Below are positions 3,701-19,667 of a stretch of DNA of 64,000 nucleotides, in pieces. Numbering within the stretch: position 1 is the stretch's first letter; each line of letters opens with the position of its first letter. Position numbers and translations under genes: made by a program. The stretch comes from Nitrospira sp. CG24E. Its GTDB lineage: Bacteria > Nitrospirota > Nitrospiria > Nitrospirales > Nitrospiraceae. Below the pieces are notes generated by a model. That model made no database searches, was not told where the DNA came from, and worked only from the letters and a program-made list of their open reading frames with translations. The DNA lies in NCBI GenBank assembly GCA_002869895.2, contig NEWP02000010.1, positions 1 to 64,000 of the forward strand, given 5' to 3'.

Positions 3701-3792
3701 GGCTGGTTGATCTGGTTCATCTCGTCTATTTGGTTCATTTAGTTGGTCTTGTTCAACTAAACAAACGAGACAAACCAAATAAACCAAATAAC
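3701..3792. repeat. GTTTG-word quasi-palindrome, copy 1
   Basis: A spacer of about 90 bases between thiL and lon with a G/T-rich left arm made of iterated words such as TGGTTCAT and TTTGGTT, a centre GTTCAACTAAAC, and an A/C-rich right arm of complementary words such as AAACCAAAT. The arms can fold on each other. Five related elements occur at 6358, 7441, 10775, 11681 (half) and 16491. Confidence 0.8.
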
Positions 3793-6357: not shown

Positions 6358-6448
6358 TAGTTTCTTTTGTTTCTTTGGTCTATTTGGTTTGTTTGGTTGA
6401 ACTACACCTACCAAATGAACGAAACAAACCAGATAAACCAAATCAACC
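6358..6448. repeat. GTTTG-word quasi-palindrome, copy 2
   Basis: Between lon and galU. Left arm of TTTGTTTCTTTGG and TTTGGTTTGTTTGG words, centre GGTTGAACTACAC, right arm of AACAAACC and AAACCAAAT words. Same architecture as the copy at 3701. Confidence 0.8.
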
Positions 6449-7440: not shown

Positions 7441-7531
7441 AGTTGATCTGGTTCATCTGGTTTGTTTTGTTTATCTGGTTGGTAGGGTTCAACTAAACAA
7501 ACCAAACAGACCAAATGAACGAGAGAAACAA
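7441..7531. repeat. GTTTG-word quasi-palindrome, copy 3
   Basis: Left arm of TGGTTCATCTGGTTTG words, centre GGGTTCAACTAAAC, right arm AACAAACCAAACAGACC. It lies in the 445-base divergent spacer between galU and bamA. The rest of that spacer holds a promoter at 7582 and no convincing gene. Confidence 0.8.
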
Positions 7532-10774: not shown

Positions 10775-10872
10775 CTGGTTGATATGGTTCGTTTAGTTTG
10801 TTTGGTTGATTTGGTTTTTGGTTGAACAAAACAAACCAAATAAACACGACAAACCAAACAAACCAGATAAAC
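10775..10872. repeat. GTTTG-word quasi-palindrome, copy 4
   Basis: Fills the spacer between the two OmpH genes. Left arm TTTAGTTTGTTTGG words, centre GGTTGAACAAAAC, right arm AACAAACCAAATAAAC words. It ends directly in the GGAGGAGG ribosome site of the next gene. Confidence 0.8.
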
Positions 10873-11422: not shown

Positions 11423-11470
11423 AGGAAGCGGGGGTGGCCTGGTTGGCCCCTGTGCTCACGGAACAGCGAG

Positions 11471-11567
11471 GGGATGGAGCCTGATGATCTCCTGTGCTCG
11501 CGCAACGCGCGGCTTCCGAAAGCCCTCGTTGGACGCGCGCAGTGGGAGATCAATCAGGCCCCATCCC
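11471..11567. repeat. GC-core hairpin repeat, copy A
   Basis: A 97-base inverted repeat. The outer arms (11471-11492 and 11545-11567) pair over about 20 bases. The inside holds a constant core, TGCTCGCGCAACGCGCGG, and its partner CTCGTTGGACGCGCGCAG, around a small GGCTT/AAGCC loop stem. Related copies are at 14764, 42554 and 52283. An open frame through it (11474-11665) appears to be accidental. Confidence 0.85.
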
Positions 11568-11680
11568 TGAGAGATACCGAGCAAGCTTGGAGAAAACATT
11601 TATATCGTTCGATGCGCGCAGTCGAGGATCAGCTGGAGACACTTGAAAGTGCAATTTTGGAATGAATTCTCAGTCCGATT

Positions 11681-11717: not shown

Positions 11718-12956
11718 ATGCCCGTTTACCATTATAAGGGGTATAAGAACGACGGCGGGGCCGCGACCGGCATCATCGATGCCGAGAGTCCGAAGGTCGC
11801 CCGCGTTAAATTGCGCAAGGTCGGCGTGTTCCCCACCGATATGGTGGAACAGGGCTCTGCCACGACCGGCTCGACGACGGGAGTTTCCGGCAGATCCACC
11901 GTTGGAATCGGCCGCTCCCCTGCCCTCAGTACAACCGATGTGGCGATGATGACGAGACAGTTGGCCACCTTACTGGTCGCAGGACTACCGCTGGTCGAAG
12001 CGCTTGGGGTGATGGTGGAGCAAACCGAGAAGAAAGCCGTGAAGAGCCTCATGGCCGATATCCGGGAAAAAATCCGAGGCGGAGGATCCTACAGCTCGGT
12101 GCTGGAGACCTATCCGCGCGAGTTCTCACAGATCTACGTGCATATGGTCCGTGCCGGTGAAGCCAGCGGAGCCCTGGATCAGATCCTCTTCCGCCTGGCG
12201 GAGTTTTTGGAAAAACAGTTGGCGCTCAAACATAAAGTGACGAACGCCATTCTCTATCCTGCCCTGATGATGGTTGTCGGAATCTCGGTCCTCTTTTTTC
12301 TCATGACCTTCGTCGTGCCAAAAATCACCGCGGTCTTTACGAGTTTGAAGCAGGCCCTCCCCTGGCCGACCGTCGTGCTCATGAGCGTCAGCCATTTTCT
12401 CGCAGACTATTGGATGGTTATTCTCGGTGTGGTTGGGCTGAGCCTCTGGGCTATCCGCCGGGCCATGAAGACGGAAGCGGGACAGCTCACCGCCGATCGA
12501 TGGCTGTTAAAGGTTCCACTCATCGGCGAAGTCGGTCGCATGGTTGCCATTTCACGTCTCACGAGCACGCTTGCTACCATGCTGGCGAGCGGTGTCCAGT
12601 TGCTGGATGCAATGGATGTTGCAAAGCGCGTGATGAATAATCGTGTACTGGAACATGCGGTTGAGGGGGCCAGGCAAAATATCCGCGAAGGTGAAACGAT
12701 CGCCGAACCGCTGAAACGGAGCGGAGAATTTCCCGCGCTGGTCACGCATATGATTGCGGTCGGTGAACGGAGCGGTGAGATGGAAGAGATGCTCCGTCGA
12801 ATCGGACAGATCTACGATGGAGAAGTGGAGCGGGTCATTACCCGCTTCACGTCCCTCCTGGAGCCCATCATGATTTTAGTCATGGGTGTGATGGTATTCT
12901 TTATCGTCGTGGCCATCCTCTTACCCATCTTTGAGATGGGACAGATGGTGCGATAG
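11718..12956 (+). CDS. gspF: Type II secretion inner-membrane platform protein GspF
   Basis: GspF is the polytopic inner-membrane platform protein of the T2SS, which couples the GspE ATPase to pseudopilus growth. The 412-residue product has the family N-terminus (MPVYHYKGYKNDG), two T2SSF domains (about residues 75-200 and 275-400) and three hydrophobic segments near 180-200, 225-245 and 380-405. The MTRQLATLLVAGLPL motif and its counterpart ISRLTSTLATMLASGVQLL mark the two halves. It is the first gene of the T2SS cluster here. The cluster lacks gspE and gspD, which must be elsewhere. Confidence 0.95.
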   Translation: MPVYHYKGYKNDGGAATGIIDAESPKVARVKLRKVGVFPTDMVEQGSATTGSTTGVSGRSTVGIGRSPALSTTDVAMMTRQLATLLVAGLPLVEALGVMVEQTEKKAVKSLMADIREKIRGGGSYSSVLETYPREFSQIYVHMVRAGEASGALDQILFRLAEFLEKQLALKHKVTNAILYPALMMVVGISVLFFLMTFVVPKITAVFTSLKQALPWPTVVLMSVSHFLADYWMVILGVVGLSLWAIRRAMKTEAGQLTADRWLLKVPLIGEVGRMVAISRLTSTLATMLASGVQLLDAMDVAKRVMNNRVLEHAVEGARQNIREGETIAEPLKRSGEFPALVTHMIAVGERSGEMEEMLRRIGQIYDGEVERVITRFTSLLEPIMILVMGVMVFFIVVAILLPIFEMGQMVR

Positions 12957-12960
12957 GGAA

Positions 12961-13100
12961 GGTTGAGGCTTAGGTTGAGGTTAAGGGGAAGAGTATTGGA
13001 GGGTCGAGTGTTGAGAGCTGAAATGTTAAGGAAGAAGAGGCTCCTGATTTCTAATCCAGCCTCAAACCACCTTGACCTCAGCCTCAACCTTAACCTTATG
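12961..13100. repeat. AGGTTGAGG-word quasi-palindrome
   Basis: Left arm of AGGTTGAGGCTTAGGTTGAGG words (12961-12988) and right arm of CCTTGACCTCAGCCTCAACC words (13068-13097), with about 80 less regular bases between them. The arms are near-complementary. The element fills the gspF-gspG spacer. The same words recur in gspJ at about 14966-14990. Confidence 0.7.
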
Positions 13101-13117
13101 CTAACGGGAGGTGTTCG

Positions 13118-13669
13118 ATGAGCGATAGAGAACTGGCAGAGAATGTGCGCTTGCATTGGGGAAAGGAGCGCAGGTTTCTGAATTCCCACCACTCACCACT
13201 CACCACTTACCACTTGCGCAATGCTCGTGGCTTTACCTTCATCGAGATCATGGTCGTGGTGGCGATTCTCGCGATTCTCGCTGCTTTGGTCATTCCTCGC
13301 ATCATGGGGCGAACCGACGATGCCAAACGTACTGCAGCAAAGGTTCAAATTCGAAATATCGAAGGGGCCTTACAACTCTACAAACTGGACAACGGTGTCT
13401 ATCCCTCGACCGAGCAGGGGTTGAAAGCCTTGGTCGAAAAACCATCCGTCGGGGTGATTCCAAAGAAGTGGAAGATCGGCGGATACCTGCCGAAACTTCC
13501 TGAAGATCCCTGGCAAAACCCCTACAAGTACATGAGTCCCAGCCAAAGCCGTACCCAAGCCGGCGCCCCGGTCGGTGAATACGAACTGCTTTCCATGGGG
13601 ACCGACGGAGAAGTCGGCGGCGAAGGAGTCAACGCCGATATCACCAACTGGAATCTGGATAAGGACTAA
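13118..13669 (+). CDS. gspG: Type II secretion major pseudopilin GspG
   Basis: The major pseudopilin forms the T2SS piston in the periplasm. After a leader of 38 residues comes the cleavage site G|FTFIE with Glu at +5, the hydrophobic helix IMVVVAILAILAALVIP, and the GspG fold with YPSTEQGLKALVEKP and a calcium-loop-like end (LSMGTDGEVGGEG). The leader is far longer than the usual 6-15 residues and contains SHHSPLTTYHL, which is translated word repeat (13186-13217). GGGAGGTG precedes the ATG at 13118. The prepilin peptidase GspO is not in the window. Confidence 0.94.
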   Translation: MSDRELAENVRLHWGKERRFLNSHHSPLTTYHLRNARGFTFIEIMVVVAILAILAALVIPRIMGRTDDAKRTAAKVQIRNIEGALQLYKLDNGVYPSTEQGLKALVEKPSVGVIPKKWKIGGYLPKLPEDPWQNPYKYMSPSQSRTQAGAPVGEYELLSMGTDGEVGGEGVNADITNWNLDKD

Positions 13670-13672
13670 ACG

Positions 13673-14305
13673 ATGCGGCAAGTGGTAAGTGGCAAGTGGC
13701 AAGTGGCGCGGAAAACGCACCCGTCGGTTCCGCCTCTCAACTTACCACTTGCTACTTGCTACTTACGGTCTTCGGGCGGTTTCACCATCATCGAGATCAT
13801 CCTTGTCCTTTTTTTGCTTGCTGGATTGCTGGGAATCATCCTGCCTCGGATTTCGCTGGAGGAAACTCTTGGCTCTGTCGGCCGGCGCATCGTCGGAAAC
13901 GTGCGATCCCTTCAAAGTCTGGCGATGTCGACCCAAAAGACAGTCCACCTCTACGTCGATATCGATCGGGGAATCTATTGGCCCATGATTGTGGATGGCA
14001 ACCAGGAAAAGGCGCCGGCCGATGCAGCCTGGGTCACACCCGTAAAACTCCCGGAGACGATTCGTTTTTCAGATATCCTGGTGAGTCAGGGGAAAAAAGA
14101 ATCTGGTCGAGTGGATCTGTTTTTTTATCCCACCGGAAGGGTCGATACGGCGACGATGCATTTGATGAATACGAGCAACAACATTCTGGCCATTGCCATT
14201 GAGCCGGTCACAGGCGCGATCCGCATGAGCGATGAGCGGATCGAGCCCCCCAGACCACTCATCATTCCCGATCGTATCCGATCGTTGCTAAAAATCGGCG
14301 CATAA
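13673..14305 (+). CDS. gspH: Type II secretion minor pseudopilin GspH
   Basis: The gene starts four bases after the gspG stop. The 210-residue product has a 36-residue leader, a G|FTIIE processing site and a hydrophobic helix, followed by a beta-rich domain with RRIVGNVRSLQSLAMSTQKTV, as in GspH-type pilins. The leader again includes translated word repeat (VVSGKWQVA and LNLPLATCYL). GspH belongs to the tip or shaft of the pseudopilus. Family assignment rests on order and motif; the C-terminal domain is divergent. Confidence 0.85.
   Translation: MRQVVSGKWQVARKTHPSVPPLNLPLATCYLRSSGGFTIIEIILVLFLLAGLLGIILPRISLEETLGSVGRRIVGNVRSLQSLAMSTQKTVHLYVDIDRGIYWPMIVDGNQEKAPADAAWVTPVKLPETIRFSDILVSQGKKESGRVDLFFYPTGRVDTATMHLMNTSNNILAIAIEPVTGAIRMSDERIEPPRPLIIPDRIRSLLKIGA
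13677..13767. repeat. AAGTGGC-word quasi-palindrome inside gspH leader
   Basis: Left arm (13677-13707) iterates AAGTGGT/AAGTGGC; right arm (13738-13767) iterates ACTTACC and ACTTGCT. The two are complementary and are read through by the gspH frame, where they code for most of the prepilin leader. Confidence 0.8.
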
Positions 14306-14349
14306 CCACGCAACCAGCATAATGCTCTGCGATTGCAGAGTGGGCTTCT

Positions 14350-14754
14350 ATGGAAAGTGAACGGGGTTTCACATTATTGGAAGTCTTGATCGCGCTCGGT
14401 ATTCTTGCGTTGGCCTTGCCGATTTTATTGGGGCTCCGAAATTTTGACCTAGACCTCCATGCGAGAGCCAAAGAACTCACGGCCGCCACGATCCTCGCGC
14501 AGGAAAAGTTGATCGAAACGGAGCTGGGGGCAGCCTTGCCTCTCGGAGAAACGGGTGGAGAGTTTCTGCCAACTCCCCTAGGGTCGCAAGCGACCCCAGC
14601 GATCACCAATCGGCCGTCGAATTATCGATGGAAGCGCATTGTCACTCCCACGCCCTTGCCGATCGTGCGGGAAGTGAAGATTCAGGTCTTGTGGCCGCGG
14701 GGCGCGACGGAAGAAATGGTGGAGGTCAGTACCTATGTCTTCGCCACGAACTAG
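14350..14754 (+). CDS. gspI: Type II secretion minor pseudopilin GspI
   Basis: A 134-residue minor pseudopilin with a short normal leader (MESERG) and the site G|FTLLE, followed by the helix VLIALGILALALPILLG. Then comes a segment with ELTAATILAQEKLIE, typical of GspI. GspI initiates the pseudopilus tip with GspJ and GspK. It is the only one of the four G/H/I/J genes here whose leader is not extended by repeats. Confidence 0.9.
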   Translation: MESERGFTLLEVLIALGILALALPILLGLRNFDLDLHARAKELTAATILAQEKLIETELGAALPLGETGGEFLPTPLGSQATPAITNRPSNYRWKRIVTPTPLPIVREVKIQVLWPRGATEEMVEVSTYVFATN

Positions 14755-14763
14755 CAGAGGGAA

Positions 14764-14860
14764 GGGATGGAGCCTGATGATCTTCTGTGCTCGCGCAACG
14801 CGCGGTCGAAGACTCCCCTCGTTGGACGCGCGCAATGGAAGATCAATCAGCCCCCATCCC
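14764..14860. repeat. GC-core hairpin repeat, copy B
   Basis: A 97-base inverted repeat between gspI and gspJ. It shares the core GTGCTCGCGCAACGCGCGG and CTCGTTGGACGCGCGCA with copies A, C and D. The outer arms start GGGATGGAGCCTGATGATC and end GATCAATCAGCCCCCATCCC. The small loop stem differs (GGTCG...GACTCC) from copy A. Confidence 0.85.
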
Positions 14861-14889
14861 TGGAAAGACAACGAGCGGCCTCCGAAGGA

Positions 14890-15588
14890 ATGGCGCAAGG
14901 GGGTGAGGAGGTTGCGATCTTAAAACTCAGAACCCAGAACTCCGCACTCAGAGCCTCCCCGCTCAACCTTGACCTCAACCTCAGCCTGCACTCTGAGGGC
15001 GGGTTCACTTTAATCGAAGTCCTGCTGGCGGTCTCCCTGGTCGCCCTGATGGCTGCCTTGGTCTTTGGCTCTCTCTATGTCACAACGAGCGCAATCGATC
15101 GGGCACGCGCGAACTCTGCCAATGAGCAGATCGTCCGCAACACTCTGCGTGTCATGATCGACGAATTATCAGTCGCCAAGAGCTCTACCGTCGGCCCTTG
15201 GATGGGCATTAATGGCCAACAGGACGGTCAACCTGCCGACTCGATCGCCTTTCTCACGATGGGCCAGTTTCGAGGAGCGGAGTCGGCCAAAGACACCGAG
15301 CTGGTTCGTATCGTCTATACCAGAGAGGGCGAACTTCTCCTTCGATTTGTGCGAAAGAATCTCTACGGTCTGACAGATGGATCTGTCGAACGAGTCGAGC
15401 TGGCCAATAAAGTGAAGGGCTTCAACCTGCGGTATTACGACGGCCAGGGCAATCTCTGGGTGGACGAGTGGGATGGCCGTGGGAGTAAGAAAACCCCTCC
15501 GAAAGCGATCTTGATTGAGTTGACGTTGCAGCAAGAAAATGCCGAACTTCAGACCATTCGGCAATGGGTGGCCGTGGGAGCCTCATGA
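14890..15588 (+). CDS. gspJ: Type II secretion minor pseudopilin GspJ
   Basis: The product has the prepilin site G|FTLIE followed by VLLAVSLVALMAALVFGSLY, and a GspJ-type domain with RVMIDELSVAKSS and VKGFNLRYYDGQGNLWVDEW. The frame stays open upstream to 14767 inside hairpin copy B; the ATG at 14890 is the first start outside that repeat, so it is used, with the true start uncertain. Even so the leader is about 38 residues and consists largely of translated word repeat (LRTQNSALR and LNLDLNLSL). The stop overlaps the gspN start (ATGA). Confidence 0.88.
   Translation: MAQGGEEVAILKLRTQNSALRASPLNLDLNLSLHSEGGFTLIEVLLAVSLVALMAALVFGSLYVTTSAIDRARANSANEQIVRNTLRVMIDELSVAKSSTVGPWMGINGQQDGQPADSIAFLTMGQFRGAESAKDTELVRIVYTREGELLLRFVRKNLYGLTDGSVERVELANKVKGFNLRYYDGQGNLWVDEWDGRGSKKTPPKAILIELTLQQENAELQTIRQWVAVGAS
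14924..15000. repeat. Word-repeat arms inside gspJ leader
   Basis: A first stretch (14924-14957) of ACTCAGAACCCAGAACTCC words is the reverse complement of the element at 19682. A second (14964-14990) of CAACCTTGACCTCAACC words matches the right arm of the element at 12961. Both are translated in frame as part of the gspJ leader. Confidence 0.75.
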
Positions 15589-16490: not shown

Positions 16491-16593
16491 ACTGGTTTGT
16501 TTTGTTTATTTGGTTTGTCTGGTTGGTTTGGTTGAACAAGACCAACTACATGAACTAAACAAACCAAATAAACCAAACCAACCAGATAAACGA
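16491..16593. repeat. GTTTG-word quasi-palindrome, copy 6
   Basis: Between gspN and gspL. Left arm TTTGTTTTGTTTATTTGG and similar words, centre GGTTGAACAAGACC, right arm AACAAACCAAATAAACC words. It stops at the GAGGAG ribosome site of gspL. Confidence 0.8.
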
Positions 16594-18185: not shown

Positions 18186-18730
18186 TGCAGATGCTGAAAG
18201 AGCGTTGGCAGCAATTCTCACAACGTGAGCGGCTCATCGTGGCTGCAGGCGGAGCCCTCGTCGCTGCGGCGCTGGTGTTTCTGCTGCTCATCGATCCGCT
18301 CATGGCGACGATCGACAAGCTCGATCGTCAAGCGAAACGAAAAGCGAAGGACAGCCAGGAGCTGGCTCTTGTCGCGCAGGAATATGTCGTCAAGCAGGCT
18401 CGCATTACCAAGCTCGATCAGCGCATGCCGGTTCCTCCGGCCCAGTTTTCACTGTTGGCCTTTATGGAAGAAGCGACAACGACGGCGCAGATCCGGGATC
18501 GTATTGTCGGCATGCAGCCCCAGGCCCCCATTGTCGTCCAGGGCTATGAGGAGACCTCGGTCGATCTTCGGCTGGACGGGGTGACGTTACCCCAGCTCTT
18601 GGCATTGTTGGTTGCCATTGAACAGGCCCCCTATGACGTGCAGGTCCACCATCTGCAGATGAAGCCGAAATACGATAATCCGGTCAACCTTGACGCCACT
18701 CTGAGAATCGTGACCTATGCGAAGGCCTGA
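18182..18730 (+). CDS. gspM: Type II secretion protein GspM
   Basis: The 182-residue product has a short cytoplasmic start (MLKERWQQFSQRERLIV), one membrane segment (residues about 20-40) and a periplasmic coiled coil followed by a small alpha/beta domain, the GspM/PilO layout. GspM partners GspL. The start overlaps the gspL stop by four bases, and the gene's end overlaps the gspK start by 14 bases. Confidence 0.88.
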   Translation: MMQMLKERWQQFSQRERLIVAAGGALVAAALVFLLLIDPLMATIDKLDRQAKRKAKDSQELALVAQEYVVKQARITKLDQRMPVPPAQFSLLAFMEEATTTAQIRDRIVGMQPQAPIVVQGYEETSVDLRLDGVTLPQLLALLVAIEQAPYDVQVHHLQMKPKYDNPVNLDATLRIVTYAKA

Positions 18731-19667
18731 CGAGCGTGGCATTGCCCTCCTGCTCACCCTCCTGGTTCTGACGATCCTGGTTGCGCTGATCCTGGAGTTC
18801 GATGCAGAGGCAAGGCGGGAATACCGTGACGCTGCTGCCTTCCGCGATAATTTCAAAGCCACGGTGCTCGCTCGCGCATCGGTACAGGCCGCCCGCGGCG
18901 TGTTGCAGCAGGATCTGCTGAAGGACAAGCAGGCCGGCCAGTCCTTCGACGCCCCCACCGACATCTGGGCCCTCCCCATCACGAATTATGTGATTGGTGA
19001 TGGCCTTCTGAATGCCAAAATCGAAGATGAATTGGGGAAGTTGAACCTGAATGACCTAAATGAACTAGCGGCCAGTGGAGATACCGTTGCCAAGGGTAAA
19101 AAGATCCAACAGTTCAAGCGATTGTTCGAGCTCTTGCAGATCAATCCGGATCTGGTCGATGCCATTGTCGATTGGGTGGATAAGGACGAGGACCAGGAAC
19201 CATCCGGCGCAGAGAGTCTCTATTATCAAACGCTGACTCCTTCCTACAAGGCCGCCAATGGTCCGCTGCAGACTCTCTTGGAACTGCGCCTAATTAAGGG
19301 GATGACACCGGAAATCATTGAAAAACTATCAAAGCTTGTCACGGTCTATCCGCAAGAGGGCAAAGCCCTGGTGAATCTGAATACTGCGGACCCACTCGTC
19401 ATTCAGACTCTCGATAATCGTATTACGCAAAGCATGGCAGCGGCGATCGTCCAGGGTCGCCCATTCAAAACCAAGGTGGATTTGGACCGTGTAAACAGCT
19501 TTCAGGAAATTGGACAGCAAATTCGACCTCTCTATGACGTCAAGAGCGATTTTTTCTTGGCCCGTCTGACGGTGAGTGTGAACGAAGTGACTAGAAACGC
19601 AACCGTAGTGCTCCGCCGCGATCCAAACAACGGAACAAGCTCGGTATTGTATTACCGTGTCCTCTGA
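18717..19667 (+). CDS. gspK: Type II secretion minor pseudopilin GspK
   Basis: A 316-residue protein with the GspK-type leader (MRRPDERG|IALLLTLLVLTILVALILE), where the usual Phe at +1 is Ile and Glu at +5 is absent, as is common for this family. It includes a large helical domain with LNLNDLNELA, VDAIVDWVDKDEDQEPSGAE (a calcium-binding type stretch) and a helix-hairpin-helix part LVNLNTADPLVIQTL. GspK caps the pseudopilus tip with GspI and GspJ. It is the last gene of the T2SS cluster. Confidence 0.93.
   Translation: MRRPDERGIALLLTLLVLTILVALILEFDAEARREYRDAAAFRDNFKATVLARASVQAARGVLQQDLLKDKQAGQSFDAPTDIWALPITNYVIGDGLLNAKIEDELGKLNLNDLNELAASGDTVAKGKKIQQFKRLFELLQINPDLVDAIVDWVDKDEDQEPSGAESLYYQTLTPSYKAANGPLQTLLELRLIKGMTPEIIEKLSKLVTVYPQEGKALVNLNTADPLVIQTLDNRITQSMAAAIVQGRPFKTKVDLDRVNSFQEIGQQIRPLYDVKSDFFLARLTVSVNEVTRNATVVLRRDPNNGTSSVLYYRVL

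Follow-up and report, generated by a model that had tools for sequence, protein, structure and literature searches.

Intergenic repeats are probably tolerated in the predicted leader peptides of the prepseudopilins GspG and GspH of Nitrospira

The T2SS operon

The window, meaning the whole stretch of 64,000 nucleotides that was analysed (C2:1-64000), is part of a 3.45 Mb genome with Nitrospira as its nearest relatives. It carried a T2SS operon with the gene order gspF, gspG, gspH, gspI, gspJ, a GspN-like gene and a gspK-like gene. The operon features described here lie on the + strand. The upstream gene gspF (11718..12956) matched PF00482 (3e-62) and TIGR02120 (8.5e-141). The gspF-gspG spacer (12959..13096) held a word hairpin between genes, recognized as an inverted repeat and by TRF, with arms at 12959-12986 (AAGGTTGAGGCT) and 13057-13096 (CAACCT). 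Terminators and promoters predicted in the region did not exceed the shuffled level.

The gene gspG (13118-13669) encodes the major pseudopilin, whose mature part (13232..13666) matched PF08334 (5.9e-37) and TIGR01710 (3.1e-49). It is followed by gspH (13673-14305), encoding a mature GspH-like minor pseudopilin (13781..14302; N-terminus FTIIEII). This protein had no match in Pfam or NCBIfam and was named from its operon position and its G/FTIIE motif (the slash marks the processing site); its orthologs were collected by tblastn. Next come gspI (14350..14754; PF02501, 1.2e-5) and gspJ, which ends at 15588 and encodes a mature minor pseudopilin (15004..15585; PF11612, 5.2e-11). The gspK-like gene (18717..19667) was assigned from its sequence.

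The N_methyl domain PF07963 was matched in GspG, GspI and GspJ. The marks of a class III signal peptide, namely a leader ending in Gly, a hydrophobic stretch and a Glu at +5, were present, in GspH by sequence as G/FTIIE. A prepilin peptidase gene is encoded in the genome (PF01478, E 7.4e-23, G000:C6:71940-72266). GspI had the usual leader of six residues (MESERG/F), as originally predicted, and the predicted GspK leader of 8 residues (MRRPDERG/I) was likewise normal. Seven other prepilin genes of the same genome had repeat-free leaders of 10-20 residues; two further weak matches were unreadable.

Leaders of GspG and GspH

The start of gspG, ATG 13118, lies 4 nt past a strong Shine-Dalgarno (SD) sequence, GGAGGTG (13107..13113), which is kept across the genus. 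The predicted leader of 38 codons (13118..13231) reads MSDRELAENVRLHWGKERRFLNSHHSPLTTYHLRNARG, ending in LRNARG/F, with the F codon at 13232; it was open and in frame in orthologs of many lengths. Within it, a heptamer array of CCACTCA/CCACTTA/CCACTTG (13187..13217; TRF period 7, 95% matches) reads SHHSPLTTYHL, and this array (CACCACT x4) makes up 27% of the leader. For gspH, the conserved SD AAGGA (13661..13665) overlaps the end of gspG, and ATG 13673 follows 7 nt on. The 36 codons of its predicted leader (13673..13780) read MRQVVSGKWQVARKTHPSVPPLNLPLATCYLRSSGG, ending in LRSSGG/F, with the F codon at 13781; most orthologs had an open, in-frame leader here, of 12-129 residues. Both arms of a heptamer hairpin lie in frame in this leader, a G-rich one of GGCAAGT x4.4 (13677..13707) and a C-rich one of ACTTGCT (13740..13766), both recognized by TRF and in the RNA fold. 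The original prediction had given leaders of 38 and 36 residues, and the SD-preceded starts agree with both lengths. It had also called the leaders largely repeat, which suits GspH, where the two arms together take up 54%, and overstates the case for GspG.

The leader words were specific to the species; the window has CCACTYR, and other species have TCACGCC or CATCACC. In the closest relative, L031 (G023), the mature GspG was 99% identical, yet the leader and its word differed. In the groups compared, dN/dS was 0-0.03 for mature GspG versus mostly 0.3-0.8 for the leader halves, with a single leader value of 1.1 from a shallow group. These values fit the proposal, already in the original prediction, that repeats are harmless because the leader is cleaved off. 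Net charge averaged +4.5 in 46 GspG leaders and +3.7 in 68 GspH leaders, and about 94% of the two sets were net positive; the leaders were hydrophilic and mostly of positive charge.

GspG leaders were mostly clustered at 33-48 residues across lineages, which suggests that their length may matter, whereas the length of the GspH leader was almost unconstrained across relatives. Repeat-free Nitrospira lineages also had a GspG leader of ~37 residues (MTDSEQ...); in f4, a family outside that of Nitrospira, it was six residues long (MRDQRG/F). We reject the repeats as the source of the long GspG leader. Because leaders of about equal length exist without repeats, the long leader is probably older than the repeats or arose independently of them, and the words would occupy a leader that was already long.

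Start of gspJ

Most orthologs start gspJ inside gspI and have 13-residue leaders; a short GspJ leader with a start at or within the gspI end was found in 41 of 52 genomes. The corresponding ancestral start in the window, ATG 14735, now opens a 62-codon frame (14735..14923), which is not in phase with gspJ. A copy of a ~120-bp dispersed repeat (14758..14877) lies between gspI and gspJ, and word arrays of AACTCCGCACTCAG and CTCAAC (14924..14987; TRF) stand in the gspJ frame ahead of G/F. The ancestral start was out of frame behind inserted repeats in the window and in L031-L033. Among the genomes with a displaced gspJ it was in frame in three and out of frame in four, so frame retention was not the rule for this gene. 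In the cultured relative N. moscoviensis (L114), an inserted palindromic repeat left the ancestral start in frame, giving a GspJ leader of 59 residues; the predicted GspG leader of this species has 41.

The GspJ leader of about 38 residues in the original prediction was not supported: it presupposes ATG 14890, and no usable SD precedes that codon. Rival starts are ATG 14767, with 79 residues, and a non-standard ATC (14917..14919), 5 nt past the SD GAGGAGG, with 29 residues. In L031, no ATG, GTG or TTG was found across 50 open gspJ codons. Judged by the comparison of the two sequences, GAGGAGG plus ATC is the best candidate for a gspJ start common to the window and L031. GspJ may be poorly made in the clade of the window.

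Repeats in the genome and the genus

Statistics for the window's own genome were taken from 560 kb (16%), by means of pattern searches and of genes called with a simple program of our own. Strand-skewed word arrays numbered 99 in these 560 kb, 70 between genes and 29 in called genes, with ~84% of the sequence called coding, a pattern beyond chance. The only period-7 arrays within called genes of the 560 kb were those of gspG and gspH. Of 14 arrays of the leader's word outside the operon, 12 were intergenic; of the other two, one fell in a long called gene and the other in a short gene of doubtful status. CCACTYRCCACTYR occurred 28 times versus 9 for the reversed control. The words did not belong to a single heptamer family: periods of 6, 7, 9, 14 and 18 and many sequences were found in one genome. 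We dropped the notion that only the C-rich strand of the arrays can code, as the bias was modest (stop-free in all frames in 20/70 versus 9/70 arrays).

Longer elements were dispersed as well. The 120-bp element between gspI and gspJ had 46 matches in its own genome, with another copy at 11465-11582. The palindromic core GTACCCCAGAGGGTAC had 26 copies there, 1-88 copies per genome in the genus and 0 in controls. The palindromic-core element was found in frame in the GspH leaders of L040, L042 and L050 and in the GspJ of N. moscoviensis, L144 and L169, where the leaders reached 59-86 residues; here the open frame of a repeat runs on, in the same phase, into a conserved protein.

Further repeats were seen at other sites. 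Intergenic hairpins of a 9-nt word, with a G/T-rich arm such as TGGTTTGTT first and AACCAAACA after it, were located at 3703-3791, 6360-6448, 7442-7529, 10776-10872 and 16493-16591, and they recurred across the window and the remaining contig. In L031, a 9-nt word hairpin had replaced the usual gspH start, and the sole in-frame ATG lay inside the repeat, without an SD. At L194:2059-2086 a CCACTCA array stopped three bases short of the ATG of a gene, occupying the place of the Shine-Dalgarno sequence.

Retention of the reading frame

Orthologs were gathered from related genomes and 80 named GTDB records, 91 after removal of duplicates. Starts of gspG were recognized by their Shine-Dalgarno pattern; for gspH we took the first ATG, else GTG, at most 24 nt from the gspG stop. 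The gspG start was in frame and stop-free to G/F in 56 of the 57 genomes with a recognized SD-start, over 14 lengths of 18-180 nt (both leaders of 18 nt being from the outgroup). For gspH, with the outgroup excluded, 68 of 74 genomes were in frame and open, over 33 lengths of 36-387 nt. In six genomes the nearest start was out of frame, and about a dozen lacked a start in this place. Counted by distinct lengths, 14 of 15 were in frame for gspG and 33 of 39 in frame and open for gspH, with binomial probabilities at 1/3 of about 2e-6 and 6e-11, in tests that treat the lengths as independent, which kinship makes only roughly so, and that use starts picked by motif or nearness. The chance of meeting no stop codon was 0.03 to 0.7 per leader sequence, and since this demand adds to that of the frame, in-frame openness by chance is less likely still. 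On a tree of the concatenated mature proteins, dozens of leader length changes were implied, and the repeats of the GspH leader varied among species while the frame stayed open. The comparison of leader lengths in related Nitrospira, which the original prediction had called for, found gspG and gspH mostly in frame through varied repeat lengths and words.

That prediction would have fallen with starts just ahead of G/F, which would leave the repeats untranslated. In GspG and GspH, predicted upstream starts instead stayed in frame and open, and of 46 long GspG leaders, 43 had no ATG, GTG or TTG 4-12 codons ahead of F. Because the frame is kept over many lengths and start codons near the site are absent, the leader repeats of gspG and gspH are very probably translated, and then cut off, in Nitrospira.

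Discussion

We consider it probable, from the comparison of sequences, that intergenic repeats are tolerated in the leaders that the GspG and GspH prepseudopilins are predicted to lose by cleavage, with the reading frame kept across the genus. Both genes would yield prepseudopilins with long cytoplasmic leaders. Translation would initiate upstream, at the conserved GGAGGTG-ATG of gspG and directly past the gspG stop codon for gspH, and the ribosome would pass through short word repeats, elsewhere intergenic, to G/F. The prepilin peptidase, whose gene is present, would then remove all residues ahead of F. Such a leader would need little more than a hydrophilic character, a mostly positive net charge and a final Gly. 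As the leader would be removed and would meet few demands, insertion of repeats is expected to be cheap, and word arrays and other dispersed repeats could be inserted, lengthened or swapped at little cost while the frame stays open. The in-frame retention, the genus-wide spread, the turnover of the repeats and the lack of nearer start codons are observed; for the use of the upstream starts in the cell, for cleavage after Gly and for the neutrality of the repeats, we infer from these patterns. An effect of the repeats on expression is possible; for altered targeting, also raised by the original prediction, the analysis gave no evidence in either direction.

The repeats could instead have their effect in the mRNA, where the hairpin at the gspG-gspH junction would shield the gspG message or damp gspH translation, so that more major than minor pseudopilin is made and translation of the repeats is a by-product. 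The junction in the window folds into a very stable hairpin (-51.7 kcal/mol, z -4.9 versus shuffles) whose base holds the gspH start, and in several relatives z was -4 to -6 with hairpins built from different words. Across the genus, however, z was below -2 at this junction in only 20 of 73 genomes (mean -0.8), some species had one arm only, and the gspG start region had no excess folding (mean z -0.3; 26 genomes). We therefore regard this explanation of the repeats as unlikely. A role of the predicted hairpin in the clade of the window is possible; as a genus-wide function, a conserved RNA hairpin was rejected, unusual folding being limited to a subset.

Improbable to a greater degree is a contingency locus, in which the heptamer tract, by gaining or losing a single 7-nt unit, would shift the frame and turn GspG and the T2SS off or on. 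Variation in unit number was seen between species: G018 (L046) has exactly one extra 7-nt unit compared with its relative G009 / L048, which puts gspG out of frame and leaves an open frame without a start codon, and G012 has exactly three units (21 nt) fewer, with the frame kept. The +7 nt case is the only genome of 57 out of frame, however, and comes from one assembly, possibly with an assembly error. The units are also few (about 3-5) and degenerate, so that slippage is expected to be rare, and heptamers are absent from many lineages. We give slightly less credence still to the GspG tract as an on/off switch of the T2SS in populations, for which the cleaved leader would be a costless site when on.

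The least credible reading, with true starts close to G/F at rare start codons and the repeats as untranslated spacer, could draw on a TTG six codons ahead of F in the GspG of the window and on the ambiguous GspJ start, but the TTG has no SD, its position holds CTC, CTT, TGC, TTC and others in relatives, and this reading would not explain why the frame is kept over many lengths.

Translated and removed repeats, the reading that we favour, would show clearly in nature, with dozens of genomes from a single genus as examples, how non-coding repeats can enter proteins by way of a disposable peptide. Prepilin leaders would then appear to extend to 60-129 residues, so that one could test how long a leader the peptidase and membrane targeting tolerate. 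Tests at the protein level are feasible since N. moscoviensis carries the trait. Automatic calls of pseudopilin starts in Nitrospira may be wrong.

Comparison with known systems

In-frame dispersed repeats (Rickettsia and others), long prepilin leaders and intergenic heptamers are each already known separately. We found no relevant literature among open papers on Nitrospira leaders or their repeats, nor on the combination of repeats in a removable leader with the frame kept throughout a genus.

Long class III (type IVb-type) prepilin leaders are known up to about 30 residues. Class III leaders are hydrophilic, cytoplasmic, variable in length and end in Gly, and are removed by the peptidase (PMC10191384); those of S. 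sanguinis have 8-18 residues (PMC6497953). Compared with long class III leaders, the predicted Nitrospira ones reach 60 (GspG) and 129 (GspH) residues, bear repeats and are part of a T2SS.

Heptanucleotide repeats have been described in bacteria as TAACTGA in Beggiatoaceae, GGGAATC in Xanthomonas and as cyanobacterial heptamers, mostly intergenic (PMC4679880, PMC4692102). They share with the Nitrospira words the mainly intergenic location, the proximity to starts and stops and unit-size indels among relatives. The known repeats have one main heptamer per genome and are rare in coding sequence, whereas the Nitrospira words are degenerate, many per genome and species-specific, and appear to be translated in two genes.

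Rickettsia palindromic elements (RPE) and other bacterial MITE-type repeats are dispersed, hairpin-forming and mainly intergenic, and they are also translated in frame within conserved genes (PMC2229807). The Nitrospira leader repeats resemble them in being dispersed, hairpin-forming and apparently coding in frame. Unlike RPE, they are mostly short degenerate words of 6-7 nt, as arrays or hairpin arms, and specific to the species. RPE lie in the mature protein, whereas all Nitrospira inserts found sit ahead of G/F, in a peptide that is expected to be removed.
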